Assembly (NCBI GenBank): GCA_015486055.1
Contig: WFSJ01000024.1
Span: forward strand, 1-46,828
Direction of reading: 5' to 3'
Length of the DNA: 46,828 nucleotides
DNA from: Acidobacteriota bacterium
Lineage (GTDB): Bacteria; Acidobacteriota; Aminicenantia; S016-38
Each line of letters opens with the position of its first letter. The stretch's first letter is position 1. Made by a program: the position numbers and the translations under genes. Shown in pieces: positions 3,549 through 43,597 of the stretch. The notes beneath the pieces are model-generated. The model ran no database searches, had not been told where the DNA came from, and was given only the letters and a program-made list of their open reading frames with translations.

Positions 3549-4409
3549 ATGGAAAAGCACACAAAAATGGAGATCAGAAATTTCGCTTATATAATAAGCG
3601 GTTCCATTGTTATAGGATTTGCCTATGCCTTATTCCTTATTCCTCATCACATAGTTCCAGGCGGTGTTTCGGGAATAGCTATTATACTGAACTATTTCTT
3701 TAAACTTCCTGTAGGAACAGTTTCTTTGGTTCTTAACATACCGATTCTTTATCTTGGAGTGAAGGTCCTTGGAGGAAAATATGGACTTCGCACTATCGTG
3801 GGAATGTTTATTTTGAACTTTGCCATTGACTTCATGCATGAAGTCCTGAAGTTGCCCTCAGGGACCGGAAATCCCCTCCTTGCTTCCATATATGGGGGAA
3901 TCCTGCTCGGTCTTGGGCTTGGCCTTGTCTTCAAGGGAAGAGCTTCCACAGGGGGGACAGATGTTATAGGAATGATAATAAATAAATGGACTGGGATGAG
4001 TATTGGGGTAGGAATATTCATGGTTGATTTTATAATAATATCCTGTGCGGGGATAGCTTTCCACTCGTTGGAAGCCCCTCTATTTGGTTATCTGACTCTA
4101 TTTTTGTCTTCCAAACTAATAGACTTTGTTCTGGAAGGCTGGAGCTATGCAAAATTAGCCGTAATAATTACAGAAAAGGAGGAGGAGATAAAGGAATTTG
4201 TCCTTAAAAAAATGGGAAGGTCAGGGACATTTCTTTACGGAGAAACATTCTTCCTTGGGAAACCAAGAAGAGTTGTCATGACTGTTATATCAAGGAAGGA
4301 ATTTCCCGGCTTAAGACAGGAAATAAGAAAAATAGACCCTAACTCCTTCATGATAGCTACAGAAGTTTACGAAGTTATAGGAAAAGGATTTAAGGCCCGC
4401 GGCCTGTGA
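3549..4409 (+). CDS. YitT family membrane protein (YitT_membrane + DUF2179)
   Basis: 286 aa with about five to six transmembrane segments in residues 10-200, including 'IPHHIVPGGVSGIAIIL', 'LVLNIPILYLGVKVLGGKY' and 'GRASTGGTDVIGMII', all characteristic of the YitT family. Residues ~215-275 form the soluble DUF2179 tail ('GRSGTFLYGETFF', 'VVMTVISRKE', 'DPNSFMIATEV'). Its transport role is not settled in the family. The ATG is only 11 nt after the tRNA-Phe discriminator base and has no Shine-Dalgarno, so expression probably comes from the tRNA transcript, with tRNA 3' processing creating a very short leader (inference). The 3' end overlaps the convergent thioredoxin-like gene by 20 bp. Confidence 0.9.
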   Translation: MEKHTKMEIRNFAYIISGSIVIGFAYALFLIPHHIVPGGVSGIAIILNYFFKLPVGTVSLVLNIPILYLGVKVLGGKYGLRTIVGMFILNFAIDFMHEVLKLPSGTGNPLLASIYGGILLGLGLGLVFKGRASTGGTDVIGMIINKWTGMSIGVGIFMVDFIIISCAGIAFHSLEAPLFGYLTLFLSSKLIDFVLEGWSYAKLAVIITEKEEEIKEFVLKKMGRSGTFLYGETFFLGKPRRVVMTVISRKEFPGLRQEIRKIDPNSFMIATEVYEVIGKGFKARGL

Positions 4410-4773
4410 GGATTTCAGCTAAATCCTCTTCAATGGACTTTTTCGGATGTTCTATTATCCTGCCTATTTCTTCATTGTTCCTATAAATAATGAATGTGGG
4501 GACCCTTTCAATATTGTATTTTGTTCTCAAAGGGTGTTTTCTCGTTCTGGGAAGAGGTAAAAGCTCATAAGATATATCAGGATTTTGCGCTTCCCAAATC
4601 ACCTTTATGAACTGGGGAACATGGAGTTGAGAATCCTTACACCAATAACCAAAGACCACAAGAACCTTATAGTTCCCCTTAACCTTAGCTATTTCTTCAA
4701 TAGCCTTTTTCTTTGGATGATAATTGGGAAAGAGCAGGGAAAATGTAAACAGTAATGGGATGATTCCCTTCAT
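4390..4773 (-). CDS. Thioredoxin-like protein with a single active-site Cys
   Basis: 127 aa. The hydrophobic N-terminus (residues 1-17, 'MKGIIPLLFTFSLLFP') looks like an export signal or membrane anchor. The rest is a thioredoxin-like fold: 'YKVLVVFGYWCKDSQLHVP' places Cys45 where the CXXC motif begins, but the second Cys is Ser48, and a cis-Pro segment 'RVPTFIIYRN' follows. A CXXS-like site suggests a monothiol or non-redox role rather than a classical disulfide reductase. It starts 3 bp after the exbD stop, so the two are co-transcribed, which suggests an envelope function. The family fold is fairly sure; the reaction is unknown. Confidence 0.7.
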   Translation of the reverse strand: MKGIIPLLFTFSLLFPNYHPKKKAIEEIAKVKGNYKVLVVFGYWCKDSQLHVPQFIKVIWEAQNPDISYELLPLPRTRKHPLRTKYNIERVPTFIIYRNNEEIGRIIEHPKKSIEEDLAEILTGRGP

Positions 4774-4776
4774 TTT

Positions 4777-5202
4777 TTATTCTGCTGGAATTGGAACAAG
4801 GGCTACTGCATCTGCCCCTGCAGTTTTGCACTTATCAATCAGGTCAACAACATTCTGATAGCGAACCTTTGGCCCCACCCTGAGGAATATCCTCCTGTCA
4901 ATTCTGGTGGAGAACTTCATCTTCAAAGTTTCAATAAGCGCATCATAAGTTACTGGCTGATTATTCAAGCTTATATCCATCTTTCCTGCAGCACCCTTTT
5001 TTACAACCAGCATTGGAATTGTAGATTTAGTAATGGTCTGTCCTTTTACAGGAGTTTGAACCTCGGGGAGTTTCACATCCATTCCCTGCTGAGCAACAGG
5101 AGTGAGAACCATGAAAATTATCAGAAGGACCAATAAAACATCACAGAAAGGAACCACATTGGGATCGGATTTTATTCCACCACTTTCTGCAGAAATACTC
5201 AT
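4777..5202 (-). CDS. exbD: ExbD/TolR family energy-transducing protein
   Basis: 141 aa. After a short cytoplasmic N-terminus there is one transmembrane helix, 'DPNVVPFCDVLLVLLIIFMV', with the conserved proton-path Asp in 'PFCDV'. A periplasmic domain follows ('QGMDVKLPEV' through 'VVDLIDKCKTAGADAVALVP'). ExbD works with an ExbB/MotA-type channel to couple the proton gradient to outer-membrane events; no exbB is visible here. The start is ATG 5202 rather than the TTG just upstream, because AAGGAGG lies 7 nt before the ATG. A strong promoter precedes it. A thioredoxin-like gene follows in the same operon, and a barrel protein gene diverges. Confidence 0.92.
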   Translation of the reverse strand: MSISAESGGIKSDPNVVPFCDVLLVLLIIFMVLTPVAQQGMDVKLPEVQTPVKGQTITKSTIPMLVVKKGAAGKMDISLNNQPVTYDALIETLKMKFSTRIDRRIFLRVGPKVRYQNVVDLIDKCKTAGADAVALVPIPAE

Positions 5203-5230
5203 CAATTTTCCTCCTTGATTTTCTCAAGAA

Positions 5231-5259
5231 ATTTTACCCCCTATTTCTTATGATGTCAA
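5231..5259 (-). promoter_or_regulatory. Promoter for the exbD operon
   Basis: On the minus strand: TTGACA (5259-5254), a 17-nt spacer, TAAAAT (5236-5231). The leader is about 22 nt and contains AAGGAGG. Confidence 0.75.
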
Positions 5260-5314
5260 TCTGAAATTTTCATTGTTTTTACAAATTTGTATTTGACATG
5301 AGTTAAAAATTCCT

Positions 5315-5343
5315 TTGACATTCCAAATCAATTAACTTATTAT
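5315..5343 (+). promoter_or_regulatory. Promoter for the barrel protein gene
   Basis: TTGACA (5315-5320), a 17-nt spacer, TATTAT (5338-5343). GGAGG (5359-5363) and ATG 5370 follow. A second TTGACA at 5293-5298 lacks a good -10. Confidence 0.75.
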
Positions 5344-5369
5344 CTAAAACAAAAAGATGGAGGTTTGAA

Positions 5370-5897
5370 ATGAGAAAAGCGAACTTGTTGACCATTGTTT
5401 TTTCACTAATTCTGATTGTCCCGTTATTTTCAGGCACAAAGATAGTCTCTGTAAATCCAATAGGATTGATCTTTGGAGATCTAAATGTTGGAGTAGAATA
5501 TCTGAGGCCTTCCTGTCTTAATCCTGTGATCGGTGGGGACCTATATATTTATTCCTCTGGGGGTTGGAGCACTTTTGGTTTTGGCCTCAGAGGTGGGATA
5601 AGGAAATATTTACAAAGGACCTCAGGGGAAGGGCTATATTTGGGGGGATATGCAGAGACAGGATTTCTTTCTGCTAAATATTTATCAAGTTCTACGAATT
5701 CCTTTCTTTTTGGGATATCTGGAGGTCCTGGATATCAGGCGATTTTCAATAATAAATATATAGTTGGGCTTGAAGGGGGAATTTCTTTTTGGGCCTCAAG
5801 CGGAATAAGCGTCGGAATAGGAGGAGAAACCTATAATCTCGGACATTACTCCGGAGTTAAACCTTATGGAGCAATCTATTTAGGAATAAAGATTTAA
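5370..5897 (+). CDS. Small exported beta-barrel-like outer-membrane protein
   Basis: 175 aa. Residues 1-22 ('MRKANLLTIVFSLILIVPLF') form a Sec signal peptide with cleavage probably near 'SGT'. The mature part alternates polar and hydrophobic residues with many Gly and aromatics ('GLIFGDLNVGVEYL', 'GGWSTFGFGLRGGI', 'YLGGYAETGF', 'GGPGYQAIF', 'VGLEGGISFW') and ends in 'PYGAIYLGIKI', the pattern of a small (about eight-strand) outer-membrane barrel. No specific family is recognised. It has its own promoter and GGAGG and is transcribed away from exbD; a perfect palindrome follows its stop. Localisation is inferred; the function is unknown. Confidence 0.75.
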   Translation: MRKANLLTIVFSLILIVPLFSGTKIVSVNPIGLIFGDLNVGVEYLRPSCLNPVIGGDLYIYSSGGWSTFGFGLRGGIRKYLQRTSGEGLYLGGYAETGFLSAKYLSSSTNSFLFGISGGPGYQAIFNNKYIVGLEGGISFWASSGISVGIGGETYNLGHYSGVKPYGAIYLGIKI

Positions 5898-5908
5898 ACT
5901 TGCTATAT

Positions 5909-5928
5909 GGGAAGCAAATTTGCTTCCC
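5909..5928. terminator. Perfect 20-bp palindrome between convergent genes
   Basis: GGGAAGCAAA followed directly by TTTGCTTCCC, between the barrel gene stop (5897) and the convergent pckA stop (5937). It can form a hairpin from either strand. T-tracts are weak on both sides, so a bidirectional terminator or transcript-end stabiliser is likely but not certain. Confidence 0.55.
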
Positions 5929-5936
5929 CTCCTGTT

Positions 5937-7565
5937 TCAGATTTCAACTGCCTTGAGTATTTCCTCGTAAAGACCCGGGAATTTCTTCATATATTCTTTC
6001 CTCTCCTGGATTAGCTGGTTTGTAAGCTTTTCTGCCGTCTCCTCTGTATAGTAATTGGAAAGGGAAAAGGGTTTAAGGTCAAGGTCCGGGATGTGCTTTG
6101 GAACGAGAGTTTTGAATTTGGAGTGTTTCTCCCACTGGATTGTGTTTTTCATAATTGCCCTTATTGCTGCTGCATTGTCCTTTATCTTTATCTTGTAAAA
6201 TCCAGTTCCCCTGTCATTTCCAGCTTCTCCTATTTTGCCTGTATTCATTAGATATGCTTGAACCTTGTCCTGCGGTAGCCCTCTATAAAGGTCATAAAAT
6301 ATGTTTCCCTCTTCTCCTTCAGGTCCAACTATGAAAGGGTTTGTTCCAACAACCCTGACTGACTGGCCTGCCTTTGTTGGGTCCCCTGCAGAGGTTTCTA
6401 TACTCTCCCCGAGCATAAAGGTAGCTGCTGCCTGCGCTGGGTTAAGCTTCTGGATCATTGGAAGTATGTCGCTTCTCCTTGTTATGAAAAGGAATATAAG
6501 ACCGTCTATCTCTGAAAGTGGAGGGATGTTTATGGTATCTGATTTCCACTCTCCGAGGTCTGACCACTGGATTATTCCCCTTCCATTTCCCGTTAGTGTG
6601 AGGTCCTGAAAGTACACTTCACCCTTCCAGTCAGCTAAAACATTTTCAAGAAGTGCGGAGGGTTTTCTCGCTGACTCGTAAATTAAAGGCTGAGATTCCC
6701 TTTCAAGGCCGTCTGTTTTTATAAAAAATCCTATTTCAGTCCCATAAGCAGAGCCATCAGGCCTGAGTGCAACGAAATCGTCCTGAACTATCCAGACCCT
6801 TTCTCCTTCTTCGGGATTTAGACCCCATGGGTGGACAGAATGGGTTGTTTTCCCTGTGCCTGAAAGCCCAAAAAGCAATATTGAATATGTTTTCAGCTTC
6901 CCATCCTTGTCTTTTACCCTTGCCAGCTTGGTCCCTGCATGAAGCCCAAGATATCCCTTGTCCCTCTTTGCCCTATACATTGCCATTCTCAGGAAGCCCT
7001 TCTTTATTTCCCCGTAATAATCAGTGCCGAGGACAAAGGTCAGGTTTATTTCAGGAAATACAATGACCTGGCGGTCTTTTTCCTGCCATTCCGGAATGAA
7101 AACTATATAAAGTTCAGGTCCCGGGGCATTTGGGTTGTAATCAGGAAGGGATTGAGTCCACATATAAGGGAGCCTTATGGTGTCTCTTCTTCCTATTGAG
7201 AAAAGAAGGTGCATGTGAGGGTTAAAGTCCGGATTTATTCCCATATTCCTGTGGTGCTGTATTAGGGGAGCTTTTTTTAGGTATTGGAAAACGAGTTCCA
7301 AAGTCTGAGGAAGTTTTTCAAGGAGTTTTTTCCTTTCATCTGTCCATGGGATGGAGTTCATAAGCTCCTGGTCATCAGCATATAAATAAGTGAGCTTCGC
7401 GCTTCTGTTTCTTACTGATGTGAGGAACGCTAAGCTTCCATCCTTTGTAATAAATCCGTGCTTCACAGCCTCCTCCTTCATCTCTTCAACTGAAGGAGTC
7501 CTGACATTAGGATATTCAAAGGCTTTCTTTACCCTTTCAAGAATTTCCTTTTGATTTAAATTCAT
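5937..7565 (-). CDS. pckA: ATP-dependent phosphoenolpyruvate carboxykinase
   Basis: 542 aa, the usual length for ATP-type PEPCK. It contains 'GTDYYGEIKKG' (the paired Lys), 'GYLGLHAG' (metal-binding His), the kinase P-loop 'LFGLSGTGKTTHS', and 'VQDDFVALRPDGSAYGTE' (metal-binding Asp segment). PEPCK interconverts oxaloacetate and PEP with ATP/ADP. With the glycolytic operon at 30759-33666 this gives the cell a gluconeogenic or anaplerotic node. The C-terminal half ('LGESIETSAGDPTKAGQS') departs from the classic sequence, so this is a divergent branch. GGAGGTTGCT precedes ATG 7565, and a promoter is visible. Monocistronic. Confidence 0.95.
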   Translation of the reverse strand: MNLNQKEILERVKKAFEYPNVRTPSVEEMKEEAVKHGFITKDGSLAFLTSVRNRSAKLTYLYADDQELMNSIPWTDERKKLLEKLPQTLELVFQYLKKAPLIQHHRNMGINPDFNPHMHLLFSIGRRDTIRLPYMWTQSLPDYNPNAPGPELYIVFIPEWQEKDRQVIVFPEINLTFVLGTDYYGEIKKGFLRMAMYRAKRDKGYLGLHAGTKLARVKDKDGKLKTYSILLFGLSGTGKTTHSVHPWGLNPEEGERVWIVQDDFVALRPDGSAYGTEIGFFIKTDGLERESQPLIYESARKPSALLENVLADWKGEVYFQDLTLTGNGRGIIQWSDLGEWKSDTINIPPLSEIDGLIFLFITRRSDILPMIQKLNPAQAAATFMLGESIETSAGDPTKAGQSVRVVGTNPFIVGPEGEEGNIFYDLYRGLPQDKVQAYLMNTGKIGEAGNDRGTGFYKIKIKDNAAAIRAIMKNTIQWEKHSKFKTLVPKHIPDLDLKPFSLSNYYTEETAEKLTNQLIQERKEYMKKFPGLYEEILKAVEI

Positions 7566-10727: not shown

Positions 10728-11770
10728 CCTTATCTCTCAAGCTCATTCTTTCCTTTATTTTTATTCTCTTCCTTTCCATCTTTGGAAAGAAGAAGCTCAA
10801 TGCAGGGGAAAGTTCCTTCTCTTTGGTTGTGGTTTTCTATATTTTTTCTGGGTTTCTTCTTTCCTTCGGTTTCAAAGAGGAACTCAGATTGCTATCTCCT
10901 TTTTTTTTACTTTGTCTTGGGATCGTCGGCTTCCTTGAGGGAGCCTCCATTAATTTTTCAAGACTTGAGTTAAAAAGGGGGATAAAACTACCTGTATTAA
11001 AATTCGTTCTTTTTTTCTCCTATTTCTTTTTGGCTTTTTTTCTAATTTCTAAAAGTTTTATGCTTTCTCTTTCGGTTTCTACTTTGCTTACCCCAATTTC
11101 AATAAGGATTTCATCCATTAAGATAAGATTGTTAGCCTCGCTGTGGGAGATATTCTCTATTCTAATTCTCGGTGTAATTTTTTCCTTGGAAAGGGGCAAT
11201 TTTCTTGCTTCTTTGGCTCTTCACATTCTCTTCGGGGTCTTATTGGCACTGATAACTTATATTTCTCTGGGAATTAAGGCAAGCAGCGCAGAGAGGAATG
11301 CGATTATAATAGGGATTCTCTTTCTTGGTGCTTCTTCTGCTTCTTTCTTGCTTCTTTCCCCAATATTTGTAGGCTTCATAGCAGGGTTAATCTATGCAAA
11401 TCTTCCAAGATTTACAGGAGTGGAGAACCTGCTTCCTGAACTTCTAAACTTAGAAAAGCCAGCCTTTCTATTTCTCCTTATATCCCTTGGGATTTTCTCC
11501 TCAGCGCTTGGGATTGTTTCCCTGCTTTTAGCCGGTTTATTCTTTGCTTTGAAGATTCCCCCTGCTGCATTGTCCCGGGAGGCTTCCTTCATTTTAATAC
11601 CCCCAGTATCTGTTGCGATGGCTCTTAGCCTGTTTTTCCACTTTCCCGCTCTTTTCTCTTCTCAGATTCTTACTGCCTTTACAGTGTCCCTCATTTTTTC
11701 GGAAATAATAATGTTTATCCTATTGAATTATTCAGGCAAGTGTAATATAATAGTAAAAAGGGGGCGATAG
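10724..11770 (+). CDS. Polytopic membrane protein, Na+/H+ antiporter-like
   Basis: 348 aa with about ten or eleven hydrophobic segments and hardly any soluble part. The layout and segments such as 'FLLCLGIVGFLEGASINF', 'LSVSTLLTPISIR', 'GFIAGLIYANLPRFTGVE' and 'LFFALKIPPAALSREA' recall CPA-type cation/proton antiporters, but I see no clear catalytic Asp pair, so the transport role is tentative. The start is ATG 10724, sharing ATGA with the upstream stop, rather than ATG 10700. The last codons run through the tmRNA promoter and 11 bp into the tmRNA gene, an unusual overlap. Confidence 0.7.
   Translation: MTLSLKLILSFIFILFLSIFGKKKLNAGESSFSLVVVFYIFSGFLLSFGFKEELRLLSPFFLLCLGIVGFLEGASINFSRLELKRGIKLPVLKFVLFFSYFFLAFFLISKSFMLSLSVSTLLTPISIRISSIKIRLLASLWEIFSILILGVIFSLERGNFLASLALHILFGVLLALITYISLGIKASSAERNAIIIGILFLGASSASFLLLSPIFVGFIAGLIYANLPRFTGVENLLPELLNLEKPAFLFLLISLGIFSSALGIVSLLLAGLFFALKIPPAALSREASFILIPPVSVAMALSLFFHFPALFSSQILTAFTVSLIFSEIIMFILLNYSGKCNIIVKRGR
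11723..11751 (+). promoter_or_regulatory. Promoter for tmRNA
   Basis: TTGAAT (11723-11728), 17 nt, TATAAT (11746-11751). The mature tmRNA 5' G lies 9 nt after the -10 box, near the expected start site. The promoter sits inside the 3' end of the membrane protein gene. Confidence 0.8.
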
Positions 11771-12105
11771 GATTCGACAGGGATGAAGCGGTGGTAAGGC
11801 TGCATGCCGAGGTGCCGTCAACCTCGTAAAAAGGCGGCGACCCAATAAGTGCGAACGATCTTGCACTCGCTGCCTGAGTGAGGTAGCCGTCTGTTGATAA
11901 CCTGCCCTGAGGGTTTCAGCGGGCGAAAAAAATCAGGGTTGCCTTGGGACTTTTCTCCAGGGTCTCAGGGCGAGATTAAAGGAGATAGCTCTTTTTGGCT
12001 TTGCCTCTTCAGGCCAAAAGGGGCGAAACAAGAATGGAGGGGATAAGCATGTAGATGTCTTTTTGTCGCCATCTCTGGACGCGGGTTCAATTCCCGCCGC
12101 CTCCA
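11760..12105 (+). ncRNA. ssrA: Transfer-messenger RNA (tmRNA)
   Basis: 346 nt. The 5' end GGGGGCG pairs with CGCCTCC at 12098-12104, followed by discriminator A. The T arm is GCGGG-TTCAATT-CCCGC (12081-12097). 'GGGGGCGATAGGATTCGACAG' style 5' ends are typical of tmRNA. The tag frame starts at GCG 11851 and reads ANDLALAA with TGA at 11875-11877, giving a short tag with the classic LAA end. CCA is not encoded. It rescues stalled ribosomes. Pseudoknot regions are GC-rich in 11890-12010. Confidence 0.95.
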
Positions 12106-12124
12106 CTTTAACACCTATTTGTGG

Positions 12125-22925: not shown

Positions 22926-24164
22926 ATGAATTTTAAATTTAGAAAGGCAAAAACTTCAAATGGTATGGACATTATATTTATTGAAAGACCGTACTCTCCT
23001 ATGATTAGCTTCCAGGTATGGGTAAGGGCTGGTTCTAAATATGAAAGGCCTGGCATAACGGGGATAAGTCATATGATTGAGCACATGATGTTCAAGGGCT
23101 CCTCAAAATATGGTCCCCAGGAGCATGCAAAGAGAGTTCAAGATATTGGCGGGGAATTTAATGCCTTTACAGGCCATGACAAAACAGTGTATTACGAAAA
23201 TATAGCTCCTCAGCACCTTGAGAACATAATAGAGATGGAATCCGATAGATTTCTACATCCACTTTTTAACCAAGAAGAATTCCTCAGGGAAAGAGATGTT
23301 GTAATGGAGGAAAGGCTCCTCAGAACGGATAACTCCCCGTATGGGAAAGGCCTTGAAGAACTATTTTCTCTCAGCTTCGTGGCCCATCCTTACCACTGGC
23401 CAATAATTGGATGGAAATCTGATATAGCCTCATACACAAAGGGAAAATTGATTCATTATTTTAAGGAGAGATATAGTCCTAAGAACATATTTTTCGTAGT
23501 AAGCGGTAAAGCTGAATTTGAAGAAGTAGTTTCTCTGATTGATAGATATTTTGGAGGTTTGGGAGGAGAAGACAGCGAAACTTATAATCTCCCTCAAGAA
23601 CCCCAACAGAAAGGTAACCGCTGGGGAGAGGTAATAATGGATGTAGGTATTCCTTTTATATTTATGGGTTATGTTCTTCCAGGATATGGAGCCGATGCTT
23701 ATCCTCTTATCTCAATTCTTGATAGGATAATTACAACAGGGGAAAGTTCAAGGCTGTGGAGGAAGCTTGTTCACGAGGAAGGTATTGCCTCAGATGCAGG
23801 AGGGGGAGTTTATTCGTTAGGAGACTACAGTATATTTTTCCTTTATGCCATGGCAAAAGAAGGAAAGTCCCTTTATGACTTAGAGAAAAGGATGGTGAGT
23901 TTGCTGGGCGAGGCAGAGATAGAGGATAACGAGCTTGAAAAAGCGAGGAACCAGAGCTTAGCTAATGTGATCTCATCCTTAGAAAAGTCATTTTACACAG
24001 GTCTTGTTTCTGGAGAAGGTTATATAAATAAGCAAGATCCCTCCTATTTTCTAAGGAATCTTGATATATTGAAAAAGGCGGGAAAAGAGGAAGTTGAGAG
24101 AGTATGGAGGGAATATTTAAGAGAGGGTAGGAGGAATACAGTTTTTATAAAGGGGGAAAGATGA
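22926..24164 (+). CDS. M16 zinc peptidase, catalytic subunit
   Basis: 412 aa. The inverted zinc motif HxxEH is intact at residues 49-53 ('ISHMIEHMMFKG'), with the third ligand Glu about 76 residues later in 'RDVVMEERLL'. 'GGEFNAFTGHDKTVYYEN' and 'HPYHWPIIGWKSDI' are typical. No signal peptide, so cytoplasmic or released by another route. The downstream gene, sharing ATGA, encodes the partner subunit with the Arg/Tyr pair, the arrangement of mitochondrial processing peptidase-like heterodimers. It degrades oligopeptides; the specific substrate is unknown. Confidence 0.94.
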   Translation: MNFKFRKAKTSNGMDIIFIERPYSPMISFQVWVRAGSKYERPGITGISHMIEHMMFKGSSKYGPQEHAKRVQDIGGEFNAFTGHDKTVYYENIAPQHLENIIEMESDRFLHPLFNQEEFLRERDVVMEERLLRTDNSPYGKGLEELFSLSFVAHPYHWPIIGWKSDIASYTKGKLIHYFKERYSPKNIFFVVSGKAEFEEVVSLIDRYFGGLGGEDSETYNLPQEPQQKGNRWGEVIMDVGIPFIFMGYVLPGYGADAYPLISILDRIITTGESSRLWRKLVHEEGIASDAGGGVYSLGDYSIFFLYAMAKEGKSLYDLEKRMVSLLGEAEIEDNELEKARNQSLANVISSLEKSFYTGLVSGEGYINKQDPSYFLRNLDILKKAGKEEVERVWREYLREGRRNTVFIKGER

Positions 24165-25441
24165 TTTTCAAAAGAAAATTTATGGAGATATCAGGAGTAA
24201 AAGGAGCAATTTATCAACGGAGAAAGGGAGAAACCCTTAGCGGAGAAATTGTTCTTTTAGGCGGGAGAAGTGTTGACACAGACGGGAAGGAGGGAATTTC
24301 TTCCCTTCTTTCTTCCCTTTTTAACAGGGGTTGTGAGGACCTAAATTACGAGGAAATAGTGGGAGAACTTGAAAGGATGGGTTCCTCAATTTCAGCTTCT
24401 GCAGGGACTGACTCTATAACTATAACATTCTGGACAATGAAGGAGTTTGTAGCAGAGACAATTGATATATTATTAAAATGCCTGAGTTCGCCAAGATTTC
24501 CTCAGGATGAATTGGAGAAAGAGATTGAGAGGCAGGTAAATGAGATGAAGAGAACCTGGGATATTCCTGAAATTGCAGCCTCAAAGATTTTCCAGCACAG
24601 GGTTTTTGGTTCCCATCCATATTCAAAACACGAAAAGGAAATTACATTAAGAAGGATAAGCAGAGAAGAACTATTAGATAGAAAGGAGAAAGAATTCAGA
24701 AGGAAAAGAGCTATTGTTGTAATTAGCGGTTCCCATCCAGACTCTGAGGGAATCCTTAAAAGAGTTGTGGATATGCTTGATGGGGAAGGGGAAAGATTTT
24801 CCATGAGGTTGCCCAAACTTCATGAAGGAAGAAAAATTTATTTTTACCAGAAGGAAAATGCTGAGCAGACACAGATAAGGATGGGTCATCCATCCTTTCC
24901 GAGATCTTTTCCAAACTACGAGGAAGCAGTCATTTTTAATTATATTCTCGGAGGAGGAGGATTTTCCTCAAGGTTGATGGAAAAAATAAGGGCTAAGGGA
25001 GGTCTTACCTACTCAGTAAGATCTTCCTTCACTCCGATGTTGTTTGGAGGCCTTTTTTCAATTTCAACTTTCACAAAACCTGAGAATACCGATGAAATCA
25101 TAGAGGAAATTATAAAAGAGATTGAAAGAACCTTGAGGGAAGGAGTAACCCGTGAGGAAGTTGAGAAAGCTAAGGGATATTACCTTGGACATTTCCCATT
25201 AGAACTTGAAACTCCTGTTCAGATAGGCTCCCTCCTGTCGGAAATTCTATTTTACGGTCTTAAAGAGGAATATCCTGAAGAATTTATCCATAGAATAAAG
25301 AATATCAGAGCAGAGGATATCAATTTTATTGCCCCTCAGCTTATAAAGCCCGACAGTTTTGTTATAACGGCAGTTGGGAATAAAGAAGCTAAGGAAAAGC
25401 TTGGAAAACTCGGAAAAGTTGAGGAGGTGATTCCAGAATAA
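24161..25441 (+). CDS. M16 peptidase-like partner subunit, lacking HxxEH
   Basis: 426 aa. The position of the zinc motif reads 'GISSLLSSLFNRGC' with no His, so this chain cannot bind zinc. The C-terminal half keeps the substrate-binding Arg/Tyr element 'GGGGFSSRLMEKIRAKGGLTYSV', as in non-catalytic subunits. It overlaps the catalytic subunit gene by ATGA, so the two are co-translated and very probably form an active heterodimer. Not a pseudogene: the reading frame is full length and the loss is normal for this subunit type. Confidence 0.92.
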   Translation: MIFKRKFMEISGVKGAIYQRRKGETLSGEIVLLGGRSVDTDGKEGISSLLSSLFNRGCEDLNYEEIVGELERMGSSISASAGTDSITITFWTMKEFVAETIDILLKCLSSPRFPQDELEKEIERQVNEMKRTWDIPEIAASKIFQHRVFGSHPYSKHEKEITLRRISREELLDRKEKEFRRKRAIVVISGSHPDSEGILKRVVDMLDGEGERFSMRLPKLHEGRKIYFYQKENAEQTQIRMGHPSFPRSFPNYEEAVIFNYILGGGGFSSRLMEKIRAKGGLTYSVRSSFTPMLFGGLFSISTFTKPENTDEIIEEIIKEIERTLREGVTREEVEKAKGYYLGHFPLELETPVQIGSLLSEILFYGLKEEYPEEFIHRIKNIRAEDINFIAPQLIKPDSFVITAVGNKEAKEKLGKLGKVEEVIPE

Positions 25442-39443: not shown

Positions 39444-39532
39444 GGAGAGGTGCTGGAGCGGTTGAACAGGGTCGCCTGCTAAGCGATTGTCCCGTAAATA
39501 CGGGACCGTGGGTTCGAATCCCACCCTCTCCG
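39444..39532 (+). tRNA. tRNA-Ser(GCT)
   Basis: An 89-nt class II tRNA. Acceptor GGAGAGG/CCTCTCC with discriminator G; anticodon stem GTCGC/GCGAT with loop CTGCTAA (anticodon GCT). The long variable arm is GTCCCG/CGGGAC, and the T arm is GTGGG-TTCGAAT-CCCAC. CCA is not encoded. A CDS starts 11 nt downstream. Confidence 0.96.
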
Positions 39533-39543
39533 TCATTTTTGAT

Positions 39544-40203
39544 ATGAAGCTTGCGAATCTTATTTTTTCAACAAATGCTAAGATTGATGCATTGAGAACA
39601 ATCTATTTCGCCGGGGAGGGAATTTCGGGAAGAAGGATAAGTCTTCTCGGAGAGATAAATCCCAGATCCTGCCAGCTTGCCCTTCAGGAATTGATAAAAT
39701 TGGGAGTACTCAGCAGGGACGGGACAGGAAAAGCACATAAATTTTATCTCAACAGAACTCACCCTCTTTATGAAGAACTTCTTATGCCAATGTTTGAGGG
39801 AGAAAGGAAACTTTACAGAAAGATAGGCGAAAGAATAATAGAGCTTTTGCAAACTGTGGAAAATGGGGATTCTCTAATCTCAATCTGGGGCTATGAAAAA
39901 AGAGCTAAGGGAAGCAGAACTCAAGGTTTAATCCTGCTTTTTGGGAGGGAATTTGATAGGAAGAATCTCAAGAAGGTTGAGAAAAAGGTTATTAAATCTG
40001 TACTTGATACTTTAAGCACAAATATTGAAACCAAAGCTATCCTTCTTAATGATCTCGTTAAGGGAGAAAAACTCAGGAAGATAACGCAAGGTGCTGTCCT
40101 GAGGGTTATATTCGGAGAAAAGCCGGGGAACATAGCAGAAGATCTTGGCATAAAGAAAGGCCCGATACGCCTTCTTCTTTCCACCAGTTTTTCTGTTTTT
40201 TGA
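39544..40203 (+). CDS. Winged-helix protein with degenerate nucleotidyltransferase-like domain
   Basis: 219 aa. Residues ~5-70 form a winged helix-turn-helix ('RISLLGEINPRSCQLALQEL', 'LGVLSRDGTGKAHKFYLN'). Residues ~100-175 look like an MNT-type nucleotidyltransferase core, but where active members have GSxARG...DxD this reads 'ISIWGYEKRAKGSRTQGLIL', without the acidic pair. DNA binding is likely, catalysis unlikely; function unknown. ATG 39544 is chosen since the open frame further upstream lies inside tRNA-Ser. It starts 11 nt after the tRNA without Shine-Dalgarno. The next gene has its own -10 box. Confidence 0.65.
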   Translation: MKLANLIFSTNAKIDALRTIYFAGEGISGRRISLLGEINPRSCQLALQELIKLGVLSRDGTGKAHKFYLNRTHPLYEELLMPMFEGERKLYRKIGERIIELLQTVENGDSLISIWGYEKRAKGSRTQGLILLFGREFDRKNLKKVEKKVIKSVLDTLSTNIETKAILLNDLVKGEKLRKITQGAVLRVIFGEKPGNIAEDLGIKKGPIRLLLSTSFSVF

Positions 40204-40224: not shown

Positions 40225-41475
40225 ATGAGGAAAATTTTCCTCTTTTTCCTTTTGTTTTCCTTTGCCTTTTCCCTTGAAACCTTTACTCTACGCAACGGAA
40301 TGAGGATAATCATCGTAAAAAAGGACACGCCGTTTGTATTTATTAACCTATATTATAAAGCAGGTTCCTTTTTTGACCCTCATAAACAGGAAGGGATGTC
40401 CTATCTTGTTTCAAGGATGAGTTTTTTGGGGACTAAGAGAAGCAGGCCCTGGGAGCAGGTTTTTTTCTTGAAGAGGATTGGGGGAGGAATTAATGTGGAG
40501 GTGAATCAGGATTATGCAATTTATTCAAGCTATTTTCCGAAGGAAGAACTTCCCCTTGCCCTTTGGTATGAACTTGAAAGAATGAAGTCCCTTTCACTGA
40601 GAAGAGACAAATTCCTCAGAGAGAGAGAAAAGGTCGCTCGACAGCTTGAGAATGAGACAAGAACAAATCCCTGGTTTAAAATTTATTCGACTCTGCTTGA
40701 GAATTGCTATAGGTCAACTCCTTATTCCCACCCACCCTGGGCGACTTCAGAGGAAATAAGGAAAATTAGATTACCGAGACTCGTGAATTTTTATTCGACC
40801 TATTATCAGCCGAAACTTGCTACTTTAGTGTTGGTTGGAAATATTGGGCAAGATGGGAAAGAGTTAATAGAAAAAATGTTTTCTCCCATCACAGGAAAAG
40901 AGATAATTCTTCCAGAAAGAGTAGAATTCTTGGCAAGGGATAATTCGGTAAACCTGAATATAAATATAAAAGCGAAGGGAGGATTTGTAATATCCTATAG
41001 GATTTCTAACCCGAAGTTATTGGAGAGACTTAGTCTTGAAATAGTAAAGAGGGAAATAGAAAGGAAAGTTCATGAGAAAAGGATAAAGGAAAAGCTCGGG
41101 GATACAATGTCAATAAAGGTTGACCACCTCGTTTACTCCTCACTTATATCTATTGCATTTACAGGTGACCATTCCCAGGACTGGGGAAGATTTGTCCAGG
41201 ATCTTATAACGAAGCTCAGAATAATACCCTTAAGAGAAGAGGAACTGAGGGGGATAAAAATGGAAATTCTAAGGGAAATTAGAGAGAAAGAAAGCATACC
41301 TTACGAATGGGGGAAACAGATAGGAGAGCTCTATTTGGTTTTTGGCTCAAGCGAGGAGAAAACCCTTTCGACTCTCCTTGGTATAAGCCCGACAGCCCTC
41401 AGGGAAATCGTGAGGGTGAATCTTTATCCCTTTGATAGAACTATAATTCATTTGAGATCATGGAAAGAAAAATGA
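40225..41475 (+). CDS. Exported M16 peptidase-like protein without zinc motif
   Basis: 416 aa. Signal peptide 'MRKIFLFFLLFSFAFS'. The M16 fold is recognisable ('FTLRNGMRIIIVKKDTPFV', 'YKAGSFFDP', 'YYQPKLATLVLVGNI'). At the HxxEH position it reads 'GMSYLVSRMSFLGT' (Tyr60, Ser63, Arg64), so zinc cannot be bound as usual. Unlike the pair at 22926-25441, this protein and its partner are both exported and both lack the motif. A peptide-binding or scaffolding role in the periplasm is one guess. Overlaps the next gene by ATGA. Confidence 0.8.
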   Translation: MRKIFLFFLLFSFAFSLETFTLRNGMRIIIVKKDTPFVFINLYYKAGSFFDPHKQEGMSYLVSRMSFLGTKRSRPWEQVFFLKRIGGGINVEVNQDYAIYSSYFPKEELPLALWYELERMKSLSLRRDKFLREREKVARQLENETRTNPWFKIYSTLLENCYRSTPYSHPPWATSEEIRKIRLPRLVNFYSTYYQPKLATLVLVGNIGQDGKELIEKMFSPITGKEIILPERVEFLARDNSVNLNINIKAKGGFVISYRISNPKLLERLSLEIVKREIERKVHEKRIKEKLGDTMSIKVDHLVYSSLISIAFTGDHSQDWGRFVQDLITKLRIIPLREEELRGIKMEILREIREKESIPYEWGKQIGELYLVFGSSEEKTLSTLLGISPTALREIVRVNLYPFDRTIIHLRSWKEK

Positions 41476-42668
41476 CAAAGATTTTTGCCTTTTTGACATC
41501 GGTTTTTCTCCTTTTTTCAATTAATATTACAATGCTTCCTTCTCGGGGAGAGCTACTTTCGATAACGGTATTTTCACCTTGTGGGAGAGCCGATGAGGAG
41601 AAGCGAGGTCTCCTTTCATTGCTTTTAAATTACCAGAAGGAGAATTGGAGGAGGCAAATCTGGGCTACAGGCATTAAAATCGATGCCAACTTAGGGTTAG
41701 ATTCCTCTTATTTCAGGATTATTTCCCTTAAAAACTTTTGGTCAACTGCCTCTAAGATAACCTCTTCACTTATTTATGATTCTCAGATAGCCCCAGCTGT
41801 GCTCGCCAGGGCAAAGAACTACATGTCCCTGAACCTTCCCAAACCCACCATAAAGGAGTTTGCTCCCTTTTTGTTTTATCCCTCGTCAGATTATGCCAAG
41901 CCATACCCAGAAGTAGCTGATATAATGAGGGCTTCTCCCAAGGATGTTTTGGGGATAAAAAGGAAATGCTTTTCCCCGAATGTGATAAAGATAGTTGTCG
42001 AGGGAAATTTTATTCCTTCCCTTATAAATAATACATTGGTAAAGAAGAAGAATTTTCCTTATGAAGCTAAGCTCGCCGAACCACCGGATAAGCCTGCTTT
42101 GGGTTACGGGTTTCTTCAATATAGTGAAACCCATGTTATATGGTTTTTCAAGATTATAGAAGACAAAGAAATATATCCTATTAAACTATTAATTCATTCT
42201 CTCACTCGGAAACCTGATGGCTTGCTCTATTCTGTACTTCCTTCAGAGTGTGATGTGAAATCAGGGATTATGTATGGGAGGAATGTTTCCTTCGGCTGGA
42301 TTGACATAAAAGGGGGAAGCCTTAATAAAATTTTCCTAAATTCCAGTGAGGTGCTAAAGGAAAAGATGAAGGGAGGGATAAACATGATTGAACTGGGAAA
42401 AATAAAAAGATATATGAAAGGTAGGGAAGGATTTGAGGAAAGCCTTCCCTGGCAAGGCATGAGAAGCCAATGGGAAAAGTTCAATATGGAAGGAGAAGAA
42501 GAGAGCCTTCATGAGGTTAACAGGATTCTTTCCAGTTTTCCATTAAGGAGTGTAACAGTTCTATTTACTGGAAAAGAGGATGAAATGAAAGGAATTCTTG
42601 AAAAGGTGAATACAATAGGAGTCCTTAATGAGAGGGGGAAATTCCTTTATGAGCTTTCCAAAGAATAA
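41472..42668 (+). CDS. Second exported M16-like protein, strongly degenerate
   Basis: 398 aa. ATG 41472 shares ATGA with the preceding stop and gives a good signal peptide ('MTKIFAFLTSVFLLFS'); ATG 41460 is less likely. The arrangement 'CGRADEEKRGLLSLLLNYQK' occupies the place of the zinc-binding helix with no His or Glu pair, and 'CFSPNVIKIVVEGNF' and 'KPALGYGFLQYSETHVIWF' follow the M16 layout. Similarity is weak and the assignment leans on gene pairing with the upstream M16-like gene. Its stop is 2 bp from the convergent amidotransferase gene. Confidence 0.6.
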   Translation: MTKIFAFLTSVFLLFSINITMLPSRGELLSITVFSPCGRADEEKRGLLSLLLNYQKENWRRQIWATGIKIDANLGLDSSYFRIISLKNFWSTASKITSSLIYDSQIAPAVLARAKNYMSLNLPKPTIKEFAPFLFYPSSDYAKPYPEVADIMRASPKDVLGIKRKCFSPNVIKIVVEGNFIPSLINNTLVKKKNFPYEAKLAEPPDKPALGYGFLQYSETHVIWFFKIIEDKEIYPIKLLIHSLTRKPDGLLYSVLPSECDVKSGIMYGRNVSFGWIDIKGGSLNKIFLNSSEVLKEKMKGGINMIELGKIKRYMKGREGFEESLPWQGMRSQWEKFNMEGEEESLHEVNRILSSFPLRSVTVLFTGKEDEMKGILEKVNTIGVLNERGKFLYELSKE

Positions 42669-42670
42669 CG

Positions 42671-43444
42671 CTATATTTTTTCCCTCATTTCTTTTAACGC
42701 TGCATCAACTATAAATACTTCCCCGTCTCTTAGTTCTTTCCAATTTTCCTCTGAAAGTGTCTCTGCTGATATGACCACAGCTTCTTCTACTTTAAGGGCG
42801 CTTGATCTTATCGCCAGATGAGTAGACTTTGAAGCACAACAGAGTTCGTTTCCTGGTTTTTTCCTTACATAAAATAGTGGGAAATTTCCCTTTTTGAAGG
42901 CGAAAAGACGATCTCCATTGGTAATAAGGAAATTGAGAGAATTGTAGTAGGAAACAGACTCTATTTGCTTGACTGTTTTGGAAACTGAATTAACAGGGTC
43001 TTTTTCGTCCCAGTTCTGGAGGAGAAGATAAAATAATCTTTCGCTGTCGGTTTCGCCCTTTATTTTTTTCTTCCATTTGAGTTCAAGAAGATTTTCCACT
43101 GCCTTCCAATTTTCTATTGTTCCCATGTGGGCGAACATAAAATTCCCTTCAGAAAATGGGTGAGTGTTATACTCGCTGAGTTCTCCCACAGTCTTTTCCC
43201 TTATATGGAAAATTACAATTTTTGAATGGATGGTTTCGGCAAACTTCCAGAATTTTTCTTCTTTCGGTTCAAAATTCTTTACTACTGGGATCCTTAAAGT
43301 TTTGGTTTTTCCCATCTCATACCAGCCAAATCCTATGCCGCTCTTCAACTTTTCAATTACTTTCTCTTCCTCTACCTCTTCCCTTAAAAGAAGGAAGTTA
43401 ACATCCACATCTTTTTTTGCGATTATTCCAAATAATCTGCTCAT
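42671..43444 (-). CDS. Class-II glutamine amidotransferase-like protein lacking the catalytic Cys
   Basis: 257 aa. N-terminus 'MSRLFGIIAKKDVDVNF' matches YafJ-type class II amidotransferases, which begin MCRLxGI; here the nucleophile position is Ser2. 'REKTVGELSEYNTHPF' is conserved. 'FMFAHMGTIEN' replaces the usual HNG with HMG (Met107 for the oxyanion-hole Asn). Glutaminase activity is therefore doubtful, though Ntn hydrolases with N-terminal Ser exist. ATG 43444 is chosen over the open frame reaching 43588 because it restores the family N-terminus and has TATAAT 7 nt upstream. Confidence 0.78.
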   Translation of the reverse strand: MSRLFGIIAKKDVDVNFLLLREEVEEEKVIEKLKSGIGFGWYEMGKTKTLRIPVVKNFEPKEEKFWKFAETIHSKIVIFHIREKTVGELSEYNTHPFSEGNFMFAHMGTIENWKAVENLLELKWKKKIKGETDSERLFYLLLQNWDEKDPVNSVSKTVKQIESVSYYNSLNFLITNGDRLFAFKKGNFPLFYVRKKPGNELCCASKSTHLAIRSSALKVEEAVVISAETLSEENWKELRDGEVFIVDAALKEMREKI

Positions 43445-43451
43445 CACTTTT

Positions 43452-43479
43452 ATTATATATCTGACTTTTATAAAATCAA
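43452..43479 (-). promoter_or_regulatory. Promoter of the amidotransferase-like gene, predicted leaderless
   Basis: On the minus strand: TTGATT (43479-43474), 16 nt, TATAAT (43457-43452), then 7 nt to ATG 43444. No Shine-Dalgarno. Confidence 0.6.
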
Positions 43480-43597
43480 CCCCAGAAGGTAAAAATTTAC
43501 CGAAATGTTGTTCAAAAGATCTTCCTTTTCTCTTAATCGCAGACATTTTCAAAAAAGGATATGTTTTAGAGTGCCTAAAAATCCACAAACAGTTTTA

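Follow-up and report, generated by a model that had tools for sequence, protein, structure and literature searches.

Two neighbouring genes at 40225-42668 encode M16 homologues that both lack the HxxEH zinc motif and both begin with signal-like N-termini. Double-dead M16 pairs of this ancient, exported kind are so far seen in a single bacterial class. The genes lie in a stretch of 46,828 nucleotides (the window; contig WFSJ01000024.1 of an Acidobacteriota bacterium). The genome belongs to a class within Acidobacteriota which we take to be Aminicenantia. We give an even chance to the reading that the two products form an exported M16B-type heterodimer, whose zinc site was lost once and which has been maintained as a non-proteolytic complex or peptide chamber.

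Identity, zinc site and N-termini of the two chains

The features of the window used in the analysis are the following.

22926-24164, + strand: active cytoplasmic M16 chain with HMIEH (P0003), used for comparison
24161-25441, + strand: its partner chain without HxxEH and with the R/Y pair (P0004), used for comparison
39544-40203, + strand: upstream gene, 219 aa, no Pfam match, between hisS and chain A in 7/7 genomes of the window's family
40225-41475, + strand: chain A, M16 homologue without HxxEH, 416 aa (Pfam PF00675/PF05193)
40225-40275, + strand: signal-peptide-like N-terminus of chain A, MRKIFLFFLLFSFAFSL, hydrophobic core 2.81 (heuristic only)
40402-40416, + strand: HxxEH position of chain A, reading YLVSR (Tyr60-Arg64) in the alignment to HMIEH of P0003
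40480-40539, + strand: substrate-binding edge-strand region of chain A, residues 86-105 (from alignments)
41460-42668, + strand: chain B, strongly diverged M16 homologue, 402 aa (hhalign and fold)
41472-41525, + strand: signal-peptide-like N-terminus of chain B, hydrophobic core 2.63 (heuristic)
42222-42281, + strand: region of chain B where active partners bear the R/Y pair, lost here (from alignment)

A preliminary description of the window had proposed an exported M16-like pair at this place, and the open reading frames of both chains were confirmed at these coordinates. They overlap by 16 nt; an alternative ATG start of chain B at 41472 forms an ATGA overlap with the stop codon of A. Chain A matched PF00675 (E 2.9e-13) and PF05193 (E 1.6e-6), and its top PDB sequence matches were the bacterial M16 proteins 4nnz, 5euf and 3amj. 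The single sequence of chain B had no match in Pfam, NCBIfam or the PDB sequences. A seven-row profile of the B chains of the window's family (f1, seven genomes including the window's own) was aligned to active M16 partner chains over 362 columns (hhalign 98.0%, E 1.5e-13) and to dead B chains of the class (hhalign 97.8%). The latter match covers a C-terminal stretch of the VYD..G...Y type, before which the match to the active B chains stops. The AF2 model of chain B (mean pLDDT 73.7; five models, 73.7 down to 50.2) adopts an M16 fold, with 7v4y_A as its top PDB match (Z 23.8, rmsd 4.4, 339 residues) and M16B proteins or complex III core chains as the leading PDB entries. When class B chains were scanned singly, 20 of 23 matched PF05193 (M16_C), the window's own B not being among them.

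The preliminary description had called both chains M16-like and had named a second protein outside M16 as the outcome that would overturn it. Library searches with B came up empty, but profile, fold and relatives show that it is M16: the N- and C-domain profiles recognize A directly and B through hhalign and its class relatives. The AF2 model of chain A was poor (mean pLDDT 61.3), with residues 32-123 in the N-terminal half below 50. Two cysteines of chain B, Cys41 (SPCGRAD) and Cys170 (KCFSP), are invariant in all seven f1 B chains; a disulphide between them would suit an exported protein.

Loss of the zinc motif from both chains, also part of the preliminary description, was confirmed by the YLVSR reading in A and by an alignment gap at the HxxEH position of B. 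An active M16B heterodimer has HxxEH and the distal Glu in one chain and the R/Y pair in the other; the window pair has neither the former nor the latter (R/Y in 0/7 f1 B chains). Both of its M16 chains are without a working zinc site, as in the bc1 core I/II proteins. In the edge strand of A, NAxT of active chains is replaced by NVEV. The pair at 22926-25441 had been said to keep the motif in one chain, and indeed HMIEH is found in its first chain and no HxxEH in the partner. To judge from the sequences, an active cytoplasmic pair and a dead exported pair would thus be present in the same genome, as had been proposed.

Signal-like N-termini were called from the best 12-residue Kyte-Doolittle mean near the N-terminus at a threshold of 2.0, which is a heuristic and not SignalP. 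By this measure the signal peptides attributed earlier to both chains are borne out (values in the list above), and the N-termini of the cytoplasmic pair stay below the threshold (0.78 for P0003 and 0.87 for P0004). The hydrophobic core reaches at least 2.40 in the A chains of all seven f1 genomes and at least 2.0 in six of the seven B chains, the seventh (G005) having 1.90. The A chain of G001 is without a clear signal-peptidase site. Two active chains, L190 and L199, likewise pass the test, through a stretch that is internal.

Conservation of the pair and loss of the zinc site across the class

All seven f1 genomes carry the two genes side by side and dead, and the motif position of A reads YLVSR, YLTSR, YLSSR, YLTGM, YLVSM, YLTAM and YLTGM. 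A scan of named genomes with the f1 B profile gave matches only in the six f1 relatives; outside f1, B's own sequence gave two weak matches, and its profile weak ones. These weak B matches first suggested that the pair is private to f1, a view that was overturned by dead A chains across the class. An A profile was run over 142 class genomes and loci were taken from all families; 81 of the 142 were sampled, each by its best profile match and not at random. In most other families, too, HxxEH is missing from the best A homologues and from the second M16 chain that comes after them. Altogether, a dead A chain was found in 77/81 sampled genomes, in all 12 families. The four genomes not scored as dead are G021, G033 and G127, in which the fetched locus is an active M16, and G026, in which a dead A is present by signature pattern, but within a long open reading frame.

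None of the 77 dead A chains keeps both zinc histidines. The first ligand is replaced by Tyr in 60 and remains His in 5; at the second, Asn stands in 50 and His in 1. The base Glu is retained in 40/77 and the distal Glu also in 40/77, which would favour a pair that is still a peptidase, working through another metal site or mechanism. The absence of both zinc histidines from any one A chain argues against such an enzyme, as does the base Glu position of f1, which is Ser, Gly or Ala in 7/7, and we consider it very improbable.

Directly after the dead A chain the reading frame stays open for at least 370 codons in 74/77 loci, a test that counts open frames and not M16 matches. In the frames after the 77 dead A chains no HxxEH was found. 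Two of the remaining three frames are ended by the contig or stretch end; at the third locus (L113) the frame is shorter and B lies further on. At L113 (genome G009, 3951-6746) the dead B frame begins ~270 nt after A, unlike at the other loci, possibly through a frameshift or an assembly error. Open reading frames above 560 aa (L124, L133, L135, L145, L151, L153, L154 and L177), which are read-through or antisense extensions and single-chain proteins, were omitted from the motif alignment; some B chains, including the sole one of f10, are therefore missing from the 62 that were counted. Class-wide, N-termini are signal-like by the 2.0 threshold in 75/77 A and 59/62 B chains. Lipoprotein anchoring was considered and rejected, lipobox-like strings being found in only 2/77 A and 1/62 B chains.

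The signature Y-L-x-[EQ]-N-x-M-F covers only part of the dead group, f1 being outside it, and was searched in a draw of 396 genomes of the phylum. It occurs in 17/47 class genomes and in 0/349 others; the reversed signature matched once in the 396 genomes, and the H-x-x-E-H form is present in 319 of them. In the rest of the phylum, 20/20 loci from 19 genomes have HLFEH in one chain; these were chosen among high-scoring matches and are not a strict top 20, so a dead pair may occur among the lower-ranked M16 genes of those genomes. Twenty other M16 loci of the class were also fetched, and all have HxxEH in a chain. The A chain at L126:1921-3249 contains the string HIDEH away from the motif position, which itself reads HLLQN; a bare search for an HxxEH string can thus give a wrong picture.

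The recurrence of the dead pair in f1 and of dead A chains in the sampled class genomes excludes a sequencing error or a loss in one genome. A search for conserved dead pairs in relatives had been proposed as a check, and relatives with an intact motif as the finding that would contradict the idea; the search yielded the dead pair throughout f1 and dead A chains in nearly the whole sample, and no intact motif appeared in the 77 A chains or in the frames behind them.

One tree comprised 71 chains, which a branch with SH-aLRT 99 divides into 36 dead A chains, drawn from 12 families, and 35 active chains of class and phylum. The motif and distal-Glu columns had been removed for this tree. A first tree that included partner chains showed the same split with SH-aLRT 93, under the star level. 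Both trees are quick, unrooted searches with SH-aLRT as the sole support measure, without bootstrap or AU test, and f1, f2 and f5 stand on long branches in them. That the dead A chains group together even with the motif columns removed makes one ancient loss of the zinc site likely; this loss would date back to the common ancestor of the class or earlier. An independent loss in f1 was rejected, f1 lying inside the dead group in both trees, with the caveats on the trees just given.

Purifying selection on the pair is seen in two pairs of f1 relatives (G003/G006 and G004/G005, neither of which includes the window's genome). The dN/dS values are 0.11 and 0.14 for A and 0.05 and 0.15 for B; in the same pairs hisS has 0.06 and 0.06, xerC 0.05 and 0.07, and the upstream gene 0.07 and 0.09. 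All these ratios are rough because 7/10 dS values exceed 1. A and B are thus constrained, mostly evolving faster than the three reference genes, and the values speak against decay. That the two genes are decaying pseudogenes would agree with the loss of active-site residues taken alone. Their frames are open, however, without internal stops in all seven f1 genomes, and together with the constraint this leaves the pseudogene explanation next to no probability.

Substrate contacts and candidate roles

In M16 enzymes the substrate is held along an edge strand, in the NAxT region (described in an excerpt of PMC9291397), and is contacted by an R/Y pair that the other half contributes (excerpt of PMC12731061). 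In families f3, f4, f6-f9, f11 and f12, the B chains retain R and Y/F in 44/48 cases, and the A chains mostly retain N-A. The R/Y pair is lost from the B chains of three families (f1 0/7, f2 0/2, f5 0/5). NAxT is broken in 7/7 f1 A chains, the Asn still being there in 5/7. On a simple reading of these alignments, the zinc site would have been lost first and the substrate contacts later, in three families including the window's.

In the reading that we favour, the clam-shell chamber formed by the two chains may capture envelope peptides that are extended or misfolded and leave them uncut, acting as a holdase, peptide carrier or peptide sensor. Heterodimer formation, periplasmic location and peptide binding are what we infer. 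Further remodelling, with loss of the chamber's canonical substrate contacts, would have taken place in the window's lineage. A chamber that binds peptides without proteolysis agrees with the survival of R/Y in most B chains of eight families. The periplasmic peptide-binding chamber of the preliminary description is accordingly only partly upheld: it is plausible in much of the class, but f1 lacks the very residues that make the best case for peptide binding. A precedent for a non-cutting M16 binding chamber may be seen in proteolytically inactive IDE, which, according to an excerpt of PMC3623905, complexes amyloid-beta and blocks fibrils in a chaperone-like manner. The wider proposal of a class-wide "pseudo-peptidasome", in which an exported double-dead heterodimer derived from one loss would capture peptides in the envelope as a counterpart of the bc1 core, has in our view somewhat less than an even chance.

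With R/Y lost in f1, the chamber idea is weaker there and a structural scaffold is a live alternative, in which the dead pair would be a stable block of a larger envelope complex and bind no free peptides. Both chains are dead, as is usual in core proteins; bovine core I reads YFVEH, with the same His-to-Tyr change as 60/77 A chains, and R/Y is absent from core proteins (both from an excerpt of PMC12731061), as it is from f1, f2 and f5. No membrane-complex genes were recognized among the neighbours inspected, some of them by Pfam scan, and a pair built purely as a scaffold sits poorly with the R/Y retained in the eight other families. We regard the scaffold as unlikely, and as the main rival for the window's own pair.

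The closest analogue would be the mitochondrial bc1 core I/II pair, which likewise consists of two usually non-proteolytic M16 chains and, in core I of cattle, shares the Tyr at the first zinc ligand with the dead A chains; the missing R/Y pair is shared with f1 in particular (excerpt of PMC12731061). The core proteins lie on the matrix side of mitochondrial complex III (same excerpt), whereas the window pair is bacterial and exported-looking, no recognized complex III genes adjoin the dead pair, and eight families mostly keep R/Y. Two half-size M16 chains, as here, also make up the bacterial M16B pairs TTHA1264/TTHA1265, SPH2681/SPH2682 and PA0372/PA0371, which are among the best sequence or structure matches of the window pair. 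The first two are described as active in an excerpt of PMC12731061, whereas the window pair has no HxxEH in either chain. With YfmH/YfmF, which are associated with EF-P modification, the relation is weak: chain A scores 26.9 bits for NF047421 and 11.4 bits for the second NCBIfam equivalog model, against cut-offs of 250 and 285, and the cytoplasmic chain of the window reaches 67.2 bits for NF047421, also under 250. Single-chain M16 proteins of the PqqL/FusC type are likewise exported but consist of one chain.

A single-chain M16 occurs in the window's genome too, on contig C39 (L181:1160-3616, - strand); it is exported-looking, 819 aa long and has HFLEH. It is the third M16 locus of the genome and could share a compartment with the dead pair as its active partner. 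The preliminary description had advised looking for a third catalytic partner; a candidate thus exists, and its partnership with A and B is possible. Its presence would favour a dead pair that regulates an active M16 sharing its compartment, for example this enzyme, or serves it as an alternative partner, whether through mixed pairing or by keeping hold of the enzyme's substrates. An active pair that looks exported exists in some relatives as well: the f1 genomes G001, G003 and G004 carry an additional M16 pair (L182, L183, L184) that has HMLEH and whose N-termini are signal-like, and none of this type was found in Pfam searches of the window's genome. Against regulation stand the encoding of the dead chains side by side, each A being followed in nearly all loci by a long open frame without HxxEH, and the single-chain enzyme's possession of both halves already. 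We consider the regulator improbable.

Bacterial M16 pairs are described with one active chain, and dead core proteins for mitochondria, in an excerpt of PMC12731061; in the part consulted, a 2024 review of pseudopeptidases treats M16 through MPP (PMC11266112). No bacterial double-dead M16 pair came up, by title or abstract start, in searches of an open-licence library. The occurrence of such a pair across 12 families indicates a selectable non-proteolytic role of the M16 clam-shell in bacteria, and a protease fold seems to have been retained for a job other than peptide cutting. It offers a free-standing system for asking what pairs like core I/II do. The graded loss, of the zinc site in all families read and of the contacts too in three, provides natural variants for binding tests.

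Gene context

The order hisS, 219-aa gene, A, B is found throughout f1, and a XerC-like gene follows B in 6/6 relatives. In the window, B is followed by a convergent gene for a class-II glutamine amidotransferase (42671-43588, - strand), and the closest xerC match of the genome (74% identity) lies on contig C3. In f3, f4 and f6-f12 a formiminotransferase-cyclodeaminase gene usually comes after the pair; 47 loci contain a member of this gene cluster, of which one representative was scanned. The f2 pair sits after a pantoate-ligase gene and the f5 pair is located elsewhere; the adjacency of A and B is constant across families. A function could not be taken from this context: the neighbours identified (formiminotransferase-cyclodeaminase, SAM synthetase, pantoate ligase, a class II tRNA synthetase, hisS and a XerC-like recombinase) are housekeeping genes that differ between families, and they therefore give no substrate.

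An open reading frame from 39487 starts inside a tRNA-Ser gene (39444-39532), and the ATG at 39544 is probably the real start of the upstream gene. A tmRNA gene is also present in the window at 11760-12106, with the tag ANDLALAA.
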